From: Streptomyces sp. NBC_01237
GTDB taxonomy: Bacteria; Actinomycetota; Actinomycetes; Streptomycetales; Streptomycetaceae
Assembly: GCF_035917275.1 (NCBI RefSeq)
Contig: NZ_CP108508.1
Span: forward strand, 1 to 64,000
Length of the DNA: 64,000 nt
Direction of reading: 5' to 3'
Shown: positions 9,715 through 53,013 of the stretch, one piece after another
Numbering within the stretch: position 1 is the first letter of the stretch
Layout: each line of letters opens with the position of its first letter
Notes under the pieces: generated by a model
Told to the model about the DNA's origin: nothing
The model's database searches: none
The model's input: the letters and a program-made list of their open reading frames with translations, nothing else
Position numbers and translations under genes: made by a program

Positions 9715-10348
9715 TGCTGCCGTCCGGGCGGCGTCGTCTACGACGGTGACGACATCGGCACCTGGAGGTGGCGGCAGCAGGAACCGGGTACCTGGGCGCA
9801 GCTCCTGCCCGAGCAGCGCGAGCGACTGACCGCACTCGGCATCCGTGGCGCCGCCCTCGCCGTGACGGCCGCCGCCCCGAAGGAGCTCCCCCCGGCGCCG
9901 GTCGGCGCGGCCAAGGGGCCCAGGAAGGCTGGGGCCGAGGCAGCGTTCGAGCGGGGCCTGACCGCCCTCGCCCAGTGGGTGGAGAAAGAAGGACAGCAGC
10001 CCGTCCCGCGCAACACGGTCGGGGAGACCACGGTCGACGGCGAAGCAGAGCCGGTGCCCGTCAAGCTGGGGGTGTGGCTCTCGAACACCAATTCCAGGAG
10101 GGACCGTCTGGACGCCGACCAGCTCGCCGCGCTCGGCGTCGCCTGGGCGGGACCGGTACCGGACATCGAGGCCGCTCCGGCTCCCTTCGTACAGGCCGCG
10201 CCGCCGGCGGCCCCGCCGAAGCAGCCGGTGCGGGAACACCACGAGGAGTGCAACAAGATGCTGTACGAGGGCGGACTGCACCTGCGACCTCATCGAGCGG
10301 CTGGGACCGCCCTCCGAGCGTGAGGACCCCTACTGGGACAACCTCTGA
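9715..10348 (+). pseudogene. Helicase C-terminal (helicase-associated domain) remnant with a His/Cys tail
   Basis: Reads as the end of a DEAD-type helicase: a helicase-associated repeat DDIGTWRWRQQEPGTWAQLL...RLTALGI, then FERGLTALAQWVEKEG...LGVWLSNTNSRRDRLDADQL. All helicase motor motifs are missing. The same frame continues into a tail with HHEEC, and after a one-base shift near 10278 ends with CTCDLIERLG...WDNL and TGA at 10346. That tail resembles the tiny His/Cys proteins at 40004 and 43075. Truncated, hence nonfunctional as a helicase. Confidence 0.65.
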
Positions 10349-20029: not shown

Positions 20030-20734
20030 AATCCCTCATTCTTTTTAGCTCTGGGCGAGTTCGATTCCGGCAAGTCTAAGCACAGATTGACTCGTGTCAC
20101 TGGGTACGGCCAGAGAGGGCCGAGTCAAGCGGAGTATCAAATTCCATTTGTATCGCTTCGGTGTGCACTTATGCACCTTTTGTATAGGCACTGCCGGGCC
20201 GCGGTCGAGGTTTCCTTCGGGGATTACCGCCCGGGGAGGGATTGTGGTGGCTGGGGCGCAGGCGACAGAAGGGCATGAATTTACTCAATCTTTACTCTAT
20301 GTAGGTGTAACAACGGCCATTGCAGTTGAACTCGTGGTGGTGGCTGGCCGTTGGCTGCGCTATCACCGCCCGGAGACATGCGGCATCCGCAAGGGGCGGG
20401 CTGACGGCAGCAGTTCGCGAGGAGTTACGGATCCAGGCAGCCGAGACGAGGAGCAATCCGAAGGTGATTTCATACTGATTCCTCGCGTGCCGACGGCATT
20501 CACCCAGTTCCAGGCGCGTCCGTCGGACTTGCCCCAGGGCGGGGCTCGGTTCCCGCGGCTCGATGAACTCCCGCTGCCCGCAGCGACGTTGCCGCCCGCC
20601 TGTTGCATGTGGAACTCGTGTCGTGAACGTCATCGGCCCAGACTCCATCTCGCGCCCGGTCGTCATACAGGACCGATCCCAGCACTGAAAGAACGTTTTG
20701 CCCTGGCGAAGGTGTTTGGGAATGCAGTGCTGCC
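20030..20734. other. Low-GC intergenic region, no supported gene
   Basis: The first 300 bases are AT-rich for this genome and likely hold the promoter of the leftward operon. Longer frames on both strands lack codon bias and Shine-Dalgarno sequences. Confidence 0.4.
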
Positions 20735-39141: not shown

Positions 39142-39557
39142 GACGATGAAGACAAAGCAATGAAGCCGACGGTTGCAGCCGTTGAACCTGCGGGATGGCC
39201 CACTTCCCCGGCCCGCACCGGGCGGTGTTCGCCGCCGAGCCCGGTCACCGGCCGGTCAGGCGTTCTGGACCTGCTGGGCGCGGCCGGGATTCCTCGTGCT
39301 GTCGGCGCCGCCGCCACTACGGGGCACTGTCCGGGGTGTCCGGGAGGTTCAGGCGGCCGAGTGTTTCCAGCAGGTGGGCGACGCGGCCGCCGGGCTCCGG
39401 GCTCCGGGCTCCGGGCTCCGGGCTCCGGGGCATCCTGGACCGCTGCGGCCGCGGTGAGGATGTCCTGCCGGATCTCCGGCGGTGCCTCCCTCCAGTGGGC
39501 CGCCAGCTGACCGAGGCGTGCGGTATCGCCCGGCTCCGGGGCGGGCTGCTCTCCCAT
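39138..39557 (-). CDS. Hypothetical protein with a frame-sensitive 7-bp repeat
   Basis: ATG 39557 overlaps the upstream stop (ATGA). The first ~45 residues are a real-looking acidic helical domain (LGQLAAHWREAPPEIRQDIL). Then five copies of a 7-base repeat lead, in the present frame, into a Pro/Arg-rich tail of doubtful coding value. The +1 frame after the repeat instead reads GGRVAHLLETLGRLNLPDTP and stops soon after; loss of one 7-base unit would select it. The native gene is probably about 78 aa. Confidence 0.5.
   Translation of the reverse strand: MGEQPAPEPGDTARLGQLAAHWREAPPEIRQDILTAAAAVQDAPEPGARSPEPGARRPRRPPAGNTRPPEPPGHPGQCPVVAAAPTARGIPAAPSRSRTPDRPVTGLGGEHRPVRAGEVGHPAGSTAATVGFIALSSSS
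39392..39426. repeat. Simple repeat, GGGCTCC x5
   Basis: Five perfect head-to-tail copies of a 7-base unit inside the reading frame at 39138-39557. Since 7 is not a multiple of 3, any change in copy number shifts the frame. Confidence 0.95.
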
Positions 39558-39781
39558 CAGATCTCCTCCGGCCGCAGGTCCCGGACCCAGCGCCACCGGC
39601 CAGTCGTCTCGGGTGCGTACAGGGACCGGCCGCCGGGGTGCTCTCCGTAGTCGCTGGTGATCGCGGTCCAGGGATCCGGATCACTGGTGCCCACCGGCAC
39701 CACCCACCCATCGAGCGGCCCGCCGTACAGCTCCACCTCGGCCGTCGTGTCGTCCACCACCTCACCGTACGAGGCAGACAC
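39557..39781 (-). CDS. Small hypothetical protein
   Basis: 74 aa from GTG 39781. Contains DTTAEVELYGGPLDGWVVPV and WTAITSDYGEHPGGRSLYAP, then WRWVRDLRPEEI; a pattern familiar from small Streptomyces hypotheticals. It is coupled to the next gene by an ATGA overlap. Function unknown. Confidence 0.6.
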   Translation of the reverse strand: MSASYGEVVDDTTAEVELYGGPLDGWVVPVGTSDPDPWTAITSDYGEHPGGRSLYAPETTGRWRWVRDLRPEEI

Positions 39782-39887
39782 CCCCACAGGTGAGCAATCC
39801 AGCCAGGAAGCGGGAGGACGATGAACCACGACTGTCCCGGAGCCTCCGGCCCGGCCCGCACCGCCCTCGGCGGCCACCCTCCCCCGG

Positions 39888-39962
39888 CACGTCACACCAG
39901 TCACCAGCCTCAACTCTGATGTCCTCCGCCCGGATCCGCCGCCTTCGGGAACCGGGTCGGTG
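39888..39962 (+). repeat. Repeat R3, copy a: leader of the tiny His/Cys gene
   Basis: CACGTCACACCAGTCACCAG ... CCCGGATCCGCCGCCTTCGG ... recurs upstream of the paralogous gene at 43075 (42955-43038) and as an orphan at 52930-53013. It contains direct GTCAC repeats and a CCG/CGG dyad. Likely promoter or 5' leader. Confidence 0.75.
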
Positions 39963-40003
39963 TACGGAAGTACCGCACCACGTCACCCACCAGGAGGACC
40001 CGC

Positions 40004-40126
40004 GTGATCGCTACCGTGCACGACGGCCAGGACCACCACGAGGACTGCGTGTACGCGCAGTCCATCACGGAGCCGTGCCGCTGCGAGGGTGTCCTCCTCT
40101 CGGAACGGGAGGAGGAGATCGCCTGA
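40004..40126 (+). CDS. Tiny His/Cys-rich protein, paralogue 1
   Basis: 40 aa from GTG 40004, 7 bases after AGGAGGA. Sequence has VHDGQDHHEDCVYAQ, then PCRCEG and an acidic end (SEREEEIA). The spacing HH-x2-C-x9-C-x-C is shared with the gene at 43075 and the tail at 10228-10348, arguing for selection on a metal site. Too short for routine gene callers. Function unknown. Confidence 0.65.
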   Translation: MIATVHDGQDHHEDCVYAQSITEPCRCEGVLLSEREEEIA

Positions 40127-40301
40127 CGGGGGCTCTGCTGCCCTGCGGCCGGTAAGGCGGGTCCGGAGCAAGTCGTCACCGCTGGAGCCGCCGCCGCTTC
40201 CGGAAACCCTCCACAGCGCGTGCCGCACCGGGGCCTCGGCTTCATAGAACCGAATCGCTGCCACGCCTTCTGGTGTTTGTTCAGCTAAATGATCGACAAA
40301 A

Positions 40302-40333
40302 GGAGCTACCCGCCGTTTCAGGCGGGTAGCTCC
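40302..40333 (-). terminator. 13-bp perfect stem-loop terminator
   Basis: GGAGCTACCCGCC-GTTTCA-GGCGGGTAGCTCC. It lies downstream of the interrupted secreted-protein gene on the minus strand. Confidence 0.75.
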
Positions 40334-40647
40334 CTAGCAGATTTTCCGCGAGATTCAGCTGAAGGGTTCGAGAATAGCTTCTCAGACCCAAATGAACAGA
40401 TAGTACATAGCTCCGTACGGGCTGCAGTACGATGGATGGTTCGCCGATCCCGGACGCCCTGCTCTCGCCACCTCGCATGCGGCAAAGGTCAAATAAGCAC
40501 CCGCAAAAGCATAGGCTGACTCTTTAGCCGGGCTCGTGGCTGATGTCAGGACGTTGGCCGATTGTGTGGCGGTCTGGGGCTGTGCTGCATGAGCGGGAAC
40601 GGTAATGGCGCCCATGGCGAGAACGACTCCGATGGCTGTCCCCGTAA

Positions 40648-41545
40648 GAGCTCGTAACACGATCTTGTTGAGATGCCCTGGTAGGCCGTGACCGGTGTGA
40701 TGATTCGGCCGTTCGTGAGGTGTGGGTACTCGACCGTGGATCGTGGACGATGGGTTGTGGGCGTTGATCGAGCCGTTGCTGCCTCCGTGGCCGGAACGGT
40801 CGCCGGGACCGAGGCCGGTGTCGGACCGGCTCTGCCTGCAGGGCGTCCTGTTCGTCCTCTACAACGACATAGCCTGGCAACTCCTGCCGATGGAGCTGGG
40901 GTTCGGCTCGGGGCAGACGTGCTGGCGCCGCCTGGAGCGATGGCAGAAAGCAGGGGTCTTCGACCGGCTGCACCGGGTCCTGCTCGCTGAGCTGAACGCG
41001 GCCGGCGAGCTCGACTGGTCGCGGGCATGCGTGGATGGTTCTCACATCCGCGCGAAAAGGGGGGCGCCGACACCGGTCCGTCGCCGGTCGACCGGCGGAA
41101 GACGGGCAGCAAACACCACCTGATCTGCGACGGACGTGGCACTCCGCTGAAGGTGATCACGACCGCGGCCAACGTCAACGACGTCACCCAGACCCTCGCC
41201 CTGGTCGACGGCATCCCACCCGTCGCAGGACGCCCCGGCCGGCCCCGCAGACGGCCCGAGGCTCTGCTCGGCGACAAGGGATACGACTCAAACCCCAACC
41301 GTGACGAGCTCCGTCGCCGGCGAATCCTGCCCGTCATCTCCCGCAAGGGATCACCGAACATCAAAGGCATCGGCAAGCTCCGCTACGTCGTGGAGCAGAC
41401 CTTCGCCCTGCTCCACCACTTCAAGCGCCTCGCAGTCCGCTGGGAACGCCGCACCGAACTCCACGACGCCTTCGTCTCCCTCGCCTGCAGCCTGATCTGC
41501 TTCAGACGCCTCAAGAAGACCCACTCATGATCGTGTTACGAGCTC
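40648..41545. mobile_element. Complete IS5-family (IS427-like) element, 898 bp
   Basis: Terminal inverted repeats GAGCTCGTAACACGATC start at both edges, and TAA is duplicated on both sides (40645-40647, 41546-41548), fitting the TNA target of IS427-group elements. It carries a two-frame transposase and is inserted in a secreted-protein gene. Confidence 0.92.
40722..41530 (+). CDS. IS5-family transposase in two overlapping frames
   Basis: OrfA from GTG 40722 reads WIVDDGLWALIEPLLPPWPE ... ELGFGSGQTCWRRLERWQKA ... CVDGSHIRAKRGAP. OrfB ends at 41530 and reads RKTGSKHHLICDGRGTPLKV ... LLGDKGYDSNPNRDEL ... KLRYVVEQTFALLHHFKRLA. They overlap around CGAAAAGGGGGGC near 41052, a classic slippery run, so the DDE enzyme is probably made by programmed frameshifting, as in other IS427-group elements. 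Confidence 0.88.
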
Positions 41546-41874
41546 TAAGGGCGCGACAGATTCGCATGATGTCTCCTTTCCAGCGCGGCCCAGAGTTTCC
41601 GGGTCGTCGCGTGATACCACATAGCTTGCCGCCAGCGGGAACGATCTCAGCTAGTTCCTCAACGCTGACTGGCGTTGCGTGTCTTGGTGACTGCGGCGGC
41701 CGGCCAGAACGAGAACACACCCTCTGATTGGTTGTCCGGTTGAGGCCTCAGCCGCAGCCCTTGTGCTTGCTAAGAATGACGTATGAGGCCGACCGGCTTC
41801 TTGTACGAAAGCGCACTTGTCCGCCCTGCTTCCCGGTGGCGGCCAGCGTGCCCGAGTGACGAGAGGACGGGCCG

Positions 41875-42896
41875 ATGGCGCTGGAGGACCGCGGAGAGAA
41901 CGCGGAGCAACGGCCACCAGCAGGGTTACGCAGCCAGCTGATCAGATACCGGGATACCGGACGCCCGGAGCGCAGCCGCCGAGGGTCACGCTTCCCGCTG
42001 CCAGGGTGACTCTTCTTCTCGGATGGGGGGAGCCGCTACATATCCACGGCGGCTCCAACCGGTCTGGGGCGGTGGAACATTGGTCTTCGATGCTTGCAGG
42101 CCCGCAGTCTGCTCCCTTCCTGGCTGGCTACCAGGGGGCCGGATACGCGATCGAAGTTGAATTCACCCCTCTCGGTGCGCACATGTGTCTGGGCCTGCCT
42201 CTGCACCACCTTGCCGACGCGGTACTGCACCCCGACGACGTCATGGGTGCGGGCTGGACTGCCAGGATCACTGAGCGGATCGCCGTCGCTCCGGACTGGC
42301 ACACTCGGTGGGCCATCATCAACAGCACCCTGACAAAGCAGCTGGTCGACAGCCCTCCCGTGCCGCCTGTTGTAATCGAGGCGTGGCATGCTCTGTGGTC
42401 CAACCACGGGGCCCTCACCACGAGAGAGTTGACTCAGAGATCCGGCCGGGGAAGTCGCCGCCTCCAGACCCTGTTCCGTGAGTACATAGGCATCCCGCCG
42501 CAGACTCTGTCCAGGATCATCCGCTTCCAGTACGCGCTCAAGATTCCGTCTCACGGCTACCAATCCCTGGCAGAGCTCGCGGCCATCAGCGGCTACCACG
42601 ATCAGGCGCACATGAACCGGGACTTCCGCGCGCTGGCCGGCCGCACTCCCGGACAACTGCGTCCCCTTGCCGATCGGGCGACGTTGGCTGGGGGCACCGG
42701 CCACGACAGCTGCTTCACCGACTTCTTCGCCGGCCGCACACAACTCCCTCGTGGATACGCATCGCCCGGTACACCACCTCCAAGGTGCGGACCCGCCGGG
42801 CAGGCGTCACCGCCCGTCCGTCCCGGAGCCGCGGGCCGGCACCGCCCTCCCCCACCACCGACACCGGGACCGGTGCGTCGCACCTCGACGCCCTGA
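41875..42896 (+). pseudogene. AraC-family transcriptional regulator, N-terminally frameshifted
   Basis: ATG 41875 after GAGAGGACG starts ALEDRGENAEQRPPAGLRSQ and LIRYR; near 41950 one G of a GGGG run seems missing and the frame changes to GYRTPGAQPPRVTLPAARVT. The C-terminal HTH is good: ELTQRSGRGSRRLQTLFREY, IRFQYALKI, SLAELAAISGYHDQAHMNRD, then FRALAGRTPGQLR. A C-terminal Pro/Arg tail after 42730 is probably non-native. Intact function is possible only if the indel is artefactual. Confidence 0.7.
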
Positions 42897-42954
42897 TCCC
42901 GGAAATCCGTCGCAGCCGGACCCGTCACCGCACTCCGATGCGGTAAACCCTCCG

Positions 42955-43038
42955 GCACGTCACACCCGTCACACCAGCTTCAACTTTGCTGTCTTCCGCC
43001 CGGATCCGCCCCCCTTCGGGCATCGGGGCGGTGTGCGG
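42955..43038 (+). repeat. Repeat R3, copy b: leader of the second His/Cys gene
   Basis: Diverged copy of 39888-39962; homology continues through the GTACCGCACCAC...GGAGGACCCGCGTG ribosome region into the gene. Leader and gene were therefore duplicated as a unit. Confidence 0.75.
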
Positions 43039-43074
43039 GAGTACCGCACCACTTCACCCACCGGGAGGACCCGC

Positions 43075-43209
43075 GTGACCGAGACCGTGCACGACGGCCA
43101 GGACCACCACGACGACTGCATGTACCCGACCTTCGCCAACCCGGAATCATGCAACTGCGCCGAACCCCTCCTAGACGAGGTCTGGCCCCAGGACGAGGAC
43201 GCGGCCTGA
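43075..43209 (+). CDS. Tiny His/Cys-rich protein, paralogue 2
   Basis: 44 aa from GTG 43075, preceded by GGGAGGA. It reads TETVHDGQDHHDDCMYPTFA, then SCNCAEPLLDEVW and an acidic end. The first 17 residues are nearly the same as in paralogue 1, but the middle diverged while HH, C and CxC stayed, as expected under selection. A 15-bp perfect stem-loop follows. Function unknown. Confidence 0.7.
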   Translation: MTETVHDGQDHHDDCMYPTFANPESCNCAEPLLDEVWPQDEDAA

Positions 43210-43262
43210 CGAGCGCTCTGCTGCCCTGCGGCTACCGCAGGGCACCCGGGTGCCACCGCCCG

Positions 43263-43297
43263 GCCCATTGCGCCCCGGGACCCGGGGCGCAATGGGC
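43263..43297 (+). terminator. 15-bp perfect stem-loop terminator
   Basis: GCCCATTGCGCCCCG-GGACC-CGGGGCGCAATGGGC, 53 bases after the tiny gene. Confidence 0.8.
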
Positions 43298-43298
43298 G

Positions 43299-43336
43299 TG
43301 ACACCAGGCATGGCCGGTCGTTGAACCCGGTCGGGA
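43299..43336. repeat. Repeat R4, copy b (short)
   Basis: GTGACACCAGGCATGGCCGG then TCGTTGAACCCGG, related to 32273-32361 and 51859-51944; here the strong hairpin lies on the other side. Confidence 0.45.
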
Positions 43337-43437
43337 TAGACGTCACGTCATGTCGCACGGAGTCCCTGGGCGCTCATCCGTCCAGGGTCTCCTGCTGTCC
43401 GACACCATGCCCGCCCTCACGCGAGAGGATCCGACCC

Positions 43438-43665
43438 ATGACCGAGACCGACCGCACCAACCGCGGCGAGCCCACCGCTTCCCTGCTCCAGCACATCGAG
43501 GAGCTACGGGGCGCACTCGCGCACGCAACCCGCCTGCTCTCCCACTCCGCCTGACGCGAGGCGGCCGACAACCCCGGCCACACGGAGCGGCTGATGACGG
43601 CTGCCGAGCACATGACGGATCTCCTGAACCGCACCGCACCGGCCACGGCCCCAGCCCGCCGCTGA
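43438..43665 (+). pseudogene. Small hypothetical gene with an in-frame TGA
   Basis: ATG 43438 starts TETDRTNRGEPTASLLQHIE then ELRGALAHATRLLSHSA and TGA at 43552. The same frame continues with REAADNPGHTERLMTAAEHM and DLLNRTAPATAPARR to TGA 43663. Coding bias persists on both sides, so a 75-aa helical protein was cut by a nonsense change (for example CGA or TGG to TGA). Confidence 0.6.
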
Positions 43666-44097
43666 CCCAAATCCTGACCCGACATCTCCTCCGGCTATCG
43701 CGGAGAAAGATGTGTCGGTCTGCGGAACCGGCTTGCCCGCACGGTCTGACCTGCGTGAACGGGCGGACAGCCGAAACAGGGGTTCACACCTCCGGCAGTA
43801 CCTCCGGTGCAACCCACGGTCCCCTGTGCAGACAACTGTGGAGCCATCCTTCTGCACCCCCTCCGGGCGCCCCTGACGGCTCCGAAAGGGCGCTGAGCAG
43901 CCGTCAGGGAGCCTGCGGAGCGAGGCATGCGCAACCGGGGCCGGACAAGCCCACCCTGCTTGATGGCTGATCACCAAGGTGGGGCCGTGGCTGGTGCCAG
44001 CTCTAGTGCCGCATCAGAGAGCCTTCGCCCTGTTGTGCGGTTGCGACCTGTACGGTCCTCGGATCGGGAGAGTAGGTCCGACTTGGGCGGTCGAGTC
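43666..44097. other. Intergenic region
   Basis: No gene I can support. A CTGACGGCT...AGCCGTCAG dyad occurs near 43875-43910. Confidence 0.35.
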
Positions 44098-45408: not shown

Positions 45409-46244
45409 GTGGCTCGGCGGAAGCCGTGGGATGTCGATGACGAGCTGTGGGCGGTGATCGAGCCGCTGCTGCCGATGGTTGAGCGTCGGTACCGGCATCC
45501 GGGGCGGAAGCGGCATCCGGACCGGCAGGTGTTTCAGGGCATCTTGTTCGTGCTGCACACCGGGATCGCCTGGGAACACCTGCCGCAGGAGCTCGGCTTC
45601 GGTTCGGGCATGACGTGCTGGCGCCGCCTGGCCGAGTGGACCGAGGTCGGCGTGTGGCCCCGGCTCCATGAAGCACTCTTGGCCAAACTCCGGAGCGCGG
45701 ACGCGCTGGACTTCTCGCGGGCGGCCGTCGACGGCTCCCACATCCGGGCGTTAAAGGGGGCTCCAAGACGGGACGAAGCCCTATTGACCGGGGCAAGACG
45801 GGCAGCATGCACCACCTGATCACGGACGCCACTGGCATCCCGCTCGCCGTCACCCTGACCGGCGGCAACCGCAACGACGTCACCCAGCTCATCCCACTGC
45901 TCCAGGCAGTGCCGCACGTACGGGGCAAGCGCGGCAGACCTCGACACCGCCCCGACGTCGTGCTCGGTGACCGCGGATACGACCACGACAAATACCGTCG
46001 CCTCGTCCGCGCGCTCGGTGTGAAGCCACTGATCGCAAGACGCGGCATCGAGCACGGCTGCGGACTCGGAACCCAACGCTGGGTCGTAGAGCGCGCCTTC
46101 GCCCACCTGCACTGGTTCCGCCGCCTGCGGATCCGCTGGGAGATCCGCGACGACATCCACGAAGCCTTCCTCACTCTCGGGTGCGCACTCATCTGCTGGC
46201 GACGCCTGTCACAGGCGGCCCGGGCCCTCCCCCTCCCGCAGTAG
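45409..46244 (+). CDS. IS5-family transposase in two overlapping frames
   Basis: OrfA from GTG 45409 (ARRKPWDVDDELWAVIEPLL ... ELGFGSGMTCWRRLAEWTEV ... AAVDGSHIRALKGAP) and OrfB ending 46244 (GKTGSMHHLITDATGIPLAV ... VLGDRGYDHDKYRRLVRAL ... QRWVVERAFAHLHWFRRLRI). The overlap contains TTAAAGGGGGC near 45752, a plausible frameshift site. DDE residues of the family are present across the two parts. Confidence 0.87.
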
Positions 46245-47714: not shown

Positions 47715-47982
47715 GAAGGAACTGCTACACCATCAGCCGGCCCTGATCGGCTACGCCGGCTCTGTGTTTCCGCATGCCCACCAGGAAGAGAAAGCGGGGT
47801 TGCGGGGATCGCGGTTGCTTGACCGGAGACCACCTCACTATCGATGTCCTGCGGTACCCGGGCTCAAGACTTCCGCCCGGGCGATCCTGATGGCGCCTGG
47901 CTCCTCCGTTCTTCCCTCTGGGACCACTCACTTACCTACTGCTGGTACTGCTCGGTGGCCTGCGGTAGCGCCACTCTTTCTT

Positions 47983-48860
47983 CGGCAGCCAGCCCCGTTG
48001 CCCGTCCTGCGTCTGCTCTGGCTTGGAACCCCACTGCCGAACCTCCCGGCACGCGCGCCCGCAGCCTGACGCCTTTTACCGAGGGACCACTGTTAATGCG
48101 GACTGCATTTACGGGTACTGCGGTACTGCTCACGGCGGCCCCTGACTCCTGCGGGCCACCCGGTCCGGTCGCCAGTCCCGTCGCCTTCCCGCAACAACCC
48201 TGGCTTCGGAACTCCACCACCGCACCGCACTGCTGGTGGCCTCAAACAGCGCCACACTCTCCGGCAGCCAGCCCCGTCGCCCGTCCTGCGTCTGCTCTGG
48301 CTTGGAACCCCACTGCCGAACCTCCCGGCACGCGCGCCCGCAGCCTGACGCCTTTTACCGAGGGACCACTGTTAATGCGGACTGCATTTACGGGTACTGC
48401 GGTACTGCTCACGGCGGCCCCTGACTCCTGCGGGCCACCCGGTCCGGTCGCCAGTCCCGTCGCCTTCCCGCAACAACCCTGGCTTCGGAACTCCACCACC
48501 GCACCGCACTGCTGGTGGCCTCAAACAGCGCCACACTCTCCGGCAGCCAGCCCCGTCGCCCGTCCTGCATCCGCTCTGGCTTGGAACCCCACTGCCGAAC
48601 CTCCCGGCACGCGCGCCGCAGTCTGACGCCTTCACCGAGGAACTACTCGTTTACTCCACTGCTGGGTACCGCGAACTGCACTTACGGATACTGCTACCTG
48701 CGGATACTGCGGTACTGCTCACGGCGGCCCCTGACAGCTGCGGGCCACCCGGTCCGGGGTCAGTCCCGTCGCCTTCCCGCAACAACCCTGGCTCCGGAAC
48801 TCCACCACCGCACCGCACTGCGAACTACAACTACGGGTACAACTGCCTGGCAGTTCGTTT
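47983..48860. repeat. Three 279-bp tandem repeats
   Basis: Copies begin CGGCAGCCAGCCCCGT at 47983, 48262 and 48541. Copies 1 and 2 are nearly identical; copy 3 diverges after about 100 bases, adding TACTGC-rich sequence. 279 is a multiple of 3, and one frame stays open through two copies, but codon use is not typical and no start is convincing. No gene is supported between 47655 and 49081. Confidence 0.9.
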
Positions 48861-52536: not shown

Positions 52537-52929
52537 CGTCGTGCCCTTACGACCTGGCTTCCAAGACGTACCTTGGCCAGGCTGTGGTCCCGGCCAGCCC
52601 CGGCCGGGACCTGCGGTCACGCCCTGGCGGCCGCCCCGCCTACCTCCGGCCGCCAGGGCTCCGACCGGCATCGCGCCCCTGATGCTCGCCGCCGTACGCC
52701 ACCCGTAGACATGCCTGGTGCCCAGGCGGGCGATCCGGCCCCCGGAGCGGGCCGGTCGCCCACTCCCCGGCAACGCCGCCGGTCAGCCTCCGAACAGCCC
52801 TGAACGAAAAAAGGCTGTGCCAGGCCCGCAGACGGCAGGGGGCTTGCCGCGCCCCCTCTCCCTCCTTCTCCACCAAGCCCGCCCCGAACCATCCGGCCCG
52901 GCCGGCGCAGTCCCCGGCGACCGCTGCCC

Positions 52930-53013
52930 CGGCGCGTCACACCAGTCGCACCAGCCTCAACTCTGATGCCCTCCACCCGGATCCACCGCCTTCGGGAACC
53001 GGGGCGGTGTACT
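52930..53013 (+). repeat. Repeat R3, copy c: orphan leader
   Basis: Same leader as at 39888 and 42955 (GTCACACCAGTCGCACCAGC, CCCGGATCCACCGCCTTCGG), but homology stops at GTGTAC near 53013, before the ribosome site. No His/Cys gene follows; instead the recombinase module begins. The stretch 52537-52929 holds no supported gene. Confidence 0.75.

Follow-up and report, generated by a model that had tools for sequence, protein, structure and literature searches.

A narrow, probably partly decaying family of very small His/Cys proteins behind a repeated leader in Streptomyces sp. NBC_01237

Introduction

Do two very short open reading frames (ORFs) near one end of a Streptomyces contig, each preceded by a homologous leader and each carrying the same few His and Cys residues, belong to a genuine family of small proteins, or are they passengers in a repeated piece of DNA? 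The stretch that raises the question ("the window") comprises bases 1 to 64,000 of contig NZ_CP108508.1 of Streptomyces sp. NBC_01237, a contig of 8,231,337 bases (C1) in a genome of 10.19 Mb and four contigs. An original prediction, made from the sequence of the window, had seen in the two ORFs (here, tiny genes 1 and 2) a possible undescribed family of small metal-site proteins, tied to a repeated regulatory leader, of Streptomyces plasmids.

The tiny genes are, we conclude, probably a real but minor small-protein family, part of which is decaying. Stated in full, the reading that we prefer is a clade-specific, weakly selected, partly decaying family of translated mini-proteins with a probable metal site, and we put the chance that this is correct at about even. 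The evidence that carries it is the dispersal of a recognizable unit, a codon composition that is that of a gene, and an unusually slow rate of change at five His and Cys codons.

Two tiny genes and their dispersed copies

The two ORFs and their motif are as predicted, with products of 40 and 44 amino acids. Their GTG starts lie 5 nucleotides 3' of AGGAGGA and GGGAGGA, respectively. With GTG read as Met, the product of tiny gene 1 is MIATVHDGQDHHEDCVYAQSITEPCRCEGVLLSEREEEIA and that of tiny gene 2 is MTETVHDGQDHHDDCMYPTFANPESCNCAEPLLDEVWPQDEDAA. Common to both are DGQDHH-x2-C and a later CxC, separated by a diverged spacer of 9 residues in the first and 10 in the second. To judge from these sequences, the proteins are acidic, with few Lys or Arg. 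When the window was read in six frames, the tiny genes were the sole matches to HH-x2-C-x(8-11)-C-x-C; the pattern was matched neither in 30 triplet-shuffled windows nor in the other loci scanned (L033-L080, 143,427 bases in all). The positions of these and other features are collected in Table 1.

Table 1. Positions of the tiny genes, their leaders and associated features (window coordinates unless a contig is named)
Feature	Position	Strand	Remarks
Leader of tiny gene 1	39884..40003	+	Ribosome site AGGAGGA 39992-39998; homologous to leader at 42950
Tiny gene 1	40004..40126	+	ORF of 40 amino acids, GTG start, HHEDC-x9-CRC
Leader of tiny gene 2	42950..43074	+	GTCTTCC 42991-42997 can pair with ribosome site GGGAGGA 43063-43069
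Tiny gene 2	43075..43209	+	ORF of 44 amino acids, GTG start, HHDDC-x10-CNC
Hairpin directly 3' of tiny gene 2	43223..43243	+	GCCCTGCGG / CCGCAGGGC, resembles a terminator; retained in part in other copies (sequence, alignment)
Leader B, a second dispersed leader-like repeat	43276..43409	+	11-bp stem, one mismatch, 43359-43369 / 43382-43392
85-residue family gene	43438..43656	+	Interrupted by in-frame TGA 43552-43554
Gene-less leader piece	52929..53010	+	83% over 82 nucleotides; ends before ribosome site, no gene
C-terminal tail of TtrA-like helicase remnant	10228..10348	+	HHEEC in one frame, CTCD in another; excluded from the family count
Gene copies, own genome	C1 39884, 42950, 74220, 166376, 168244, 7941919, 8175835; C2 705256	minus for 8175835	DNA search
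Leader-only pieces, own genome	C1 52929; C2 20254; C3 20254		DNA search

The leaders of the two genes are homologous, and more extensively so than the 75-85 bp first claimed: identity is 88% over 174 nucleotides, which include the first 54 nucleotides of the ORF. What is dispersed is thus a unit, composed of a leader of about 120 bp, a strong ribosome site and an ORF of 40-47 codons. When the own genome was searched at the DNA level with leader plus gene as query, 11 strong matches were obtained (expectation value, E, below 1e-15): eight gene copies and three leader-only pieces. Six of these gene copies and two of the leader pieces lie beyond the window, and the tie between family and repeated leader, as well as the existence of homologues outside the window, on which the original prediction had staked itself, is borne out. 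On C1, none of the seven gene copies is farther than about 290 kb from an end of the contig.

Further copies exist in other genomes. A second genome of the same species (G199) has four gene copies and one leader piece, another Streptomyces (G227) has one gene copy, and plasmid NZ_CP108263.1 of Streptomyces sp. NBC_00053 has one, at a site without a listed gene. Together with the eight of the own genome, these make the set of 14 copies analysed here.

The distribution is narrow. Profile searches found the tiny-gene family in three of 392 Streptomyces genomes (the source genome included), and in one of 394 relatives of G227, namely G227 itself. Of 72,556 plasmid records, one has it. A DNA search of 199 relatives found full-length units in the own genome only; the 39 other genomes with matches held pieces of at most 79 nucleotides. 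Among GTDB genome contigs, two of 91 candidate stretches were relatives, both from Streptomyces sp. TSRI0281; among viral contigs, none of 76 was. Phages gave no DNA match and only weak protein matches (E 6). In the protein database, a search with a single sequence returned one protein and a search with the family profile nine, at least two of them from the own contig; six of the nine keep the motif. The spacer is of 8 residues in P0011, from Streptomyces sp. TE33382.

This does not fit the assignment of the family to Streptomyces plasmids in general. From the size of the contig and the remnant of a TtrA-like helicase near its end, we infer that the window is the arm of a linear chromosome rather than part of a plasmid. 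As a separate observation, the leader pieces at position 20254 (L031 and L030) stand at the same coordinate in C2 and C3, contigs of 1.6 Mb and 316 kb, and the 420 bases compared there are identical; this coincidence suggests that the two contigs have a shared end.

Coding signature, selection and decay

The codon composition of the tiny ORF is that of Streptomyces coding DNA. The fraction of guanine plus cytosine (GC) at codon positions 1/2/3 is 0.71/0.40/0.90 in tiny gene 1 and 0.69/0.36/0.90 in tiny gene 2; over the first 42 codons of the 14 copies it is 0.57-0.74, 0.31-0.52 and 0.83-0.98, with 0.65-0.72 in the 120 nucleotides that precede. The ribosome site is kept in 12 of the 13 copies that could be aligned with their leader, the exception being G227.

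The motif, in turn, changes slowly. The codons for H11, H12, C15, C26 and C28 show two changes, one of them synonymous, where sets of five codons drawn at random from codons 2-36 have 10.0 on average (p 0.003, in 13 of the 14 copies, the frameshifted copy at C1:168244, which also bears C15R, being dropped). In the same 13 copies, the C26 and C28 codons have no change at all, while the codon between them occurs in five forms (p 0.006). Among the 14 copies, the motif block has the least pairwise diversity (0.02-0.08); the value is 0.06 in the ribosome site, 0.12 in the first codons, 0.16-0.29 in the leader from -100 to -10, and 0.15-0.31 from about codon 17 to codon 41. Among copies that bear the motif, the spacer varies in length by whole codons, from 8 to 11 residues in the tiny proteins.

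A good deal, however, weighs against a family of working metal-binding proteins. The p values are optimistic, because paralogues are not independent, and the codons for Q9, D10 and D14, which supply no residue of the motif, are as invariant as those that do. A gene should combine coding codon composition and a ribosome site, both of which are present, with a ratio of nonsynonymous to synonymous rates (dN/dS) well below 1, which is not observed: pairwise dN/dS is 1.09 in the 11 motif-bearing copies, 1.04 without tiny gene 1, and 0.99 in all 14, although it is 0.66 among the three C15R copies. Equal rates at all codon positions were, for the original prediction, a sign that it was wrong, and over the whole ORF the third position is indeed not the faster one (409/409/312 differences at positions 1/2/3, 11 copies), although the five His/Cys codons are slower than random ones. 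When expectation is based on the mutation spectrum of the leader, codons 2-17 of all 14 copies show equal deficits of nonsynonymous and synonymous changes (0.35 and 0.37 of expectation), and changes in codons 18-35 are near neutral (0.89 and 0.81). The two blocks stand at 0.19/0.15 and 0.61/0.59 once the C15R copies and tiny gene 1 are left out. Because both classes of change are reduced alike, and because Q9, D10 and D14 do not vary, conservation of the first block could reflect constraint on the nucleotide sequence or recent exchange. The types of mutation at third positions, which do not differ from those in the leader (p 0.81 and 0.79), are not informative here.

Individual copies are also visibly damaged. 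C15R is found in three of the 14, which forces at least two changes on a weakly resolved tree, and the copy at C1:168244 adds to it a frameshift at the CxC. The homologous stop is kept in eight copies and lost or moved in six: G227 stops early, and the ends of the copies at C2:705256, C1:166376 and C1:168244, of the copy near 25 kb in G199 and of the NBC_00053 copy are altered. The three proteins found by profile that depart from the motif have CxW (C28W, P0007), C15R (P0008) and NH for HH (H11N, P0009). Nor do structure and family databases help, since tiny proteins 1 and 2 match no Pfam or NCBIfam family and no known zinc finger family, the family profile has no relative in the PDB, and an AlphaFold model is uninformative, with a mean predicted local distance difference test score of 55.6. 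The conserved metal-site pattern of the original prediction survives as a skeleton with slow His/Cys codons, in which a Cys is missing from three of the 14 copies.

On a rival reading, the unit would be a subtelomeric DNA repeat that happens to carry an old small gene, spread by recombination between replicon ends, with an ORF that now drifts without function. We regard this as a real but lesser possibility. The dN/dS of about 1 speaks for it, as do C15R, the frameshift and the lost or premature stops in several copies, the truncated leaders (at 52929, at position 20254 of C2 and C3, and in G199), the narrow distribution, and the presence of the 85-residue neighbour in only four of 14 copies. 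A drifting ORF would not, however, be expected to hold its His/Cys codons below the rate of random codons, to have as its most conserved stretch the motif block rather than the leader, or to retain a gene-like codon composition. In sum, the tiny ORF appears to be under weak selection, clearest on the His/Cys skeleton, while several copies decay.

The preferred family of translated mini-proteins takes as observed the copy number, the location, the codon composition, the slow His/Cys codons and the decay of several copies. It would then run as follows. Very small acidic proteins of about 40-47 amino acids, bearing HH-x2-C-x(8-11)-C-x-C, would each be translated from their own leader with its strong ribosome site. 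The unit sits in chromosome arms and other replicons and has multiplied there, partly along with neighbouring cassettes. Through the five His/Cys residues each protein would hold a single metal ion, probably zinc, that stabilizes a mini-fold, and the acidic chain, with few Lys or Arg, might contact another protein, not DNA, or serve as a metal buffer. Selection on each copy may be weak because several copies share the work, which would let single copies decay. A role as regulator or accessory factor, as first proposed, is possible. What was originally observed is thus partly confirmed, and its interpretation is partly supported.

The leader

If the leader is so regularly found with the ORF, does it regulate it? 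One explanation makes the leader the functional part: a cis-acting RNA, in which GTCCTCC hides the ribosome site (GGAGGAC) and releases it on a signal. The tiny ORF would then be the product under its control, such as a metal-responsive autoregulated protein, or a leader peptide for something downstream. In an alignment of about 110 nucleotides from 13 gene copies, 97.8% of cells in this helix are paired, and five of the seven departures are G-U; two further hairpins are 94% paired, and the whole proposed structure is 95.6% paired, against 34-59% when slid. The slid control, of course, favours any structure drawn from the leader sequences themselves, and column shuffles pair as well as the real alignment. 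No pair in the helices has changed on both sides, and of 300 shuffled leaders 26-296 contain a stretch that matches the ribosome site over at least the real length. A search of 39500-43700 against Rfam yielded nothing at E up to 5, and the downstream gene is not common to the copies. The explanation is accordingly improbable in our view; as a riboswitch the leader was rejected for want of covariation, and the regulatory character first ascribed to it, which found no compensatory changes to support it, is kept as a hypothesis only.

The gene-less leader reported at 52930 is indeed a copy, but a truncated remnant, because its homology stops before the ribosome site. Leader-only pieces were also considered as regulators of other genes and set aside: those at 52929 and C3:20254 stop before the ribosome site, and the piece in G199 keeps a Shine-Dalgarno-like stretch without the GTG start.

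A more ambitious combination would have a metal-binding mini-protein travel in many copies with the ends of linear Streptomyces replicons, made only when the leader frees the ribosome site, with metal status or telomere-borne helicases setting or sensing its amount. We consider this quite improbable.

The tail of the helicase remnant

The original prediction counted the tail of a helicase remnant in the window as a third version of the tiny protein. This is not supported, as HHEEC and CTCD lie there in different frames, the tail is a widespread helicase C-terminus, and profile scores lend no support. A 104-residue helicase piece that ends near the frame break has matches in 252 plasmid records, of which 249 carry the name Streptomyces. 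Ten plasmid relatives were fetched (L105-L114); each is directed inwards from a plasmid end that is no more than about 27 kb away. According to one report (PMC8743542), ttrA is a putative DEAD-box helicase gene that flanks most replicons studied, is transcribed inwards, and has a product required for SLP2 conjugation. We equate the remnant with ttrA by position and domain, not by direct sequence comparison.

The tail itself is well conserved, as HHDEC-x9-CTCD. HH, C and CxC are complete in seven of the ten relatives (L107 is without the first Cys, L111 has HY, and L108 stops before the CxC), and the consensus of eight aligned tails, L108 and L113 being left out, is HHDECDKTSYEGGTCTCDLIEEYGPPSERDDY. 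In the two pieces that were scanned, no Pfam family reached its cut-off at the tail. The HA domain (PF03457) is matched by two plasmid helicase pieces, and the two tiny ORFs match no Pfam family. Six weak PDB matches of the tail (E 0.3 to 2.4) were judged unrelated. Small proteins found with the tail profile, 30 in all, resemble helicase tails or remnants, as judged on 20 sequences.

Against a profile of 29 of these 30 tails (P0023 fell out), nine tiny proteins score -1.8 to 2.9 bits; at least 4% of full shuffles, and about half of the shuffles in which His and Cys are held fixed (442/1000 to 798/983), score as high. The tail was rejected as a relative on these grounds, despite the small P of 0.0009 that hhalign gives for tail against tiny-protein family, at a probability of 23%. 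The weakest explanation, that the tiny proteins are detached copies of a metal-binding TtrA-like tail acting as free tails or competitors, can appeal to this P, to a location near replicon ends in both cases, and to an identical order and nearly identical spacing of residues (HH-x2-C-x9-C-x-C against spacers of x8-x11), but scores inside the shuffled controls make it very improbable. The conserved His/Cys tail may itself matter more than the tiny family, as a place on a TtrA-like protein where a metal site or a partner site can be tested for.

Relation to known systems

The TtrA-like tail is a near likeness, with HH-x2-C followed by C-x-C and genes near replicon ends that read inwards; it differs in belonging to a protein of about 810-960 amino acids (in annotated full-length cases), in its flank DLIExYGPPSERDDY, and in that its profile does not match the tiny proteins. 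The one-domain zinc finger micro-proteins of prokaryotes, for example those of Haloferax, are likewise shorter than 70 amino acids with a handful of putative metal ligands. They are reported to have two C(P)xCG motifs instead of HH-x2-C and C-x-C, and no sequence relation was found. Finally, linear Streptomyces replicons, with their repeats and terminal exchange, offer a likeness, since every copy of the unit in this genome sits towards a contig end or on another replicon. The difference is that no common ends, terminal repeats or transposase for the unit were seen among the matches listed, in an alignment that leaves three copies outside.

The term "undescribed" stands, in that the portions of the literature reached by our search hold no description of the family. 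It is new, narrow and of an ordinary kind. If its members are translated, they would offer a compact and countable case of how, in the rapidly evolving arms of linear chromosomes, orphan mini-proteins with a bare metal skeleton originate, multiply and decay.

Neighbouring cassettes and other features

In that same alignment, the homology of the unit breaks off at different points in different copies. An 85-residue gene follows the tiny gene in the copies at C1:42950, 7941 kb and 8175 kb and near 25 kb in G199, with leader B between the two; an intact version lies at C1:8175253-8175507. A pentapeptide-repeat gene lies 5' of the unit at 7941 kb and 8175 kb and of the leader piece of C3, and is cut into near 111 kb in G199. 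Some subtelomeric cassettes have moved together, because the pentapeptide-repeat gene, leader B and the 85-residue gene recur around the unit. Leader B has 16 matches in the own genome, eight of them of at least 100 nucleotides (itself included), and occurs also on two plasmids. It precedes all four 85-residue genes of the own genome and a cold-shock gene near C1:74688.

An ORF for an AraC-type regulator (HTH_18) lies at 41817-42896, between tiny genes 1 and 2. Split pairs of transposase-like genes, of IS5 type by eye, flank the tiny-gene region at 40722-41530 and 45409-46244. Long direct repeats occupy 47844-48626; in translation they give a repeated unit of about 93 residues, and they may be non-coding.

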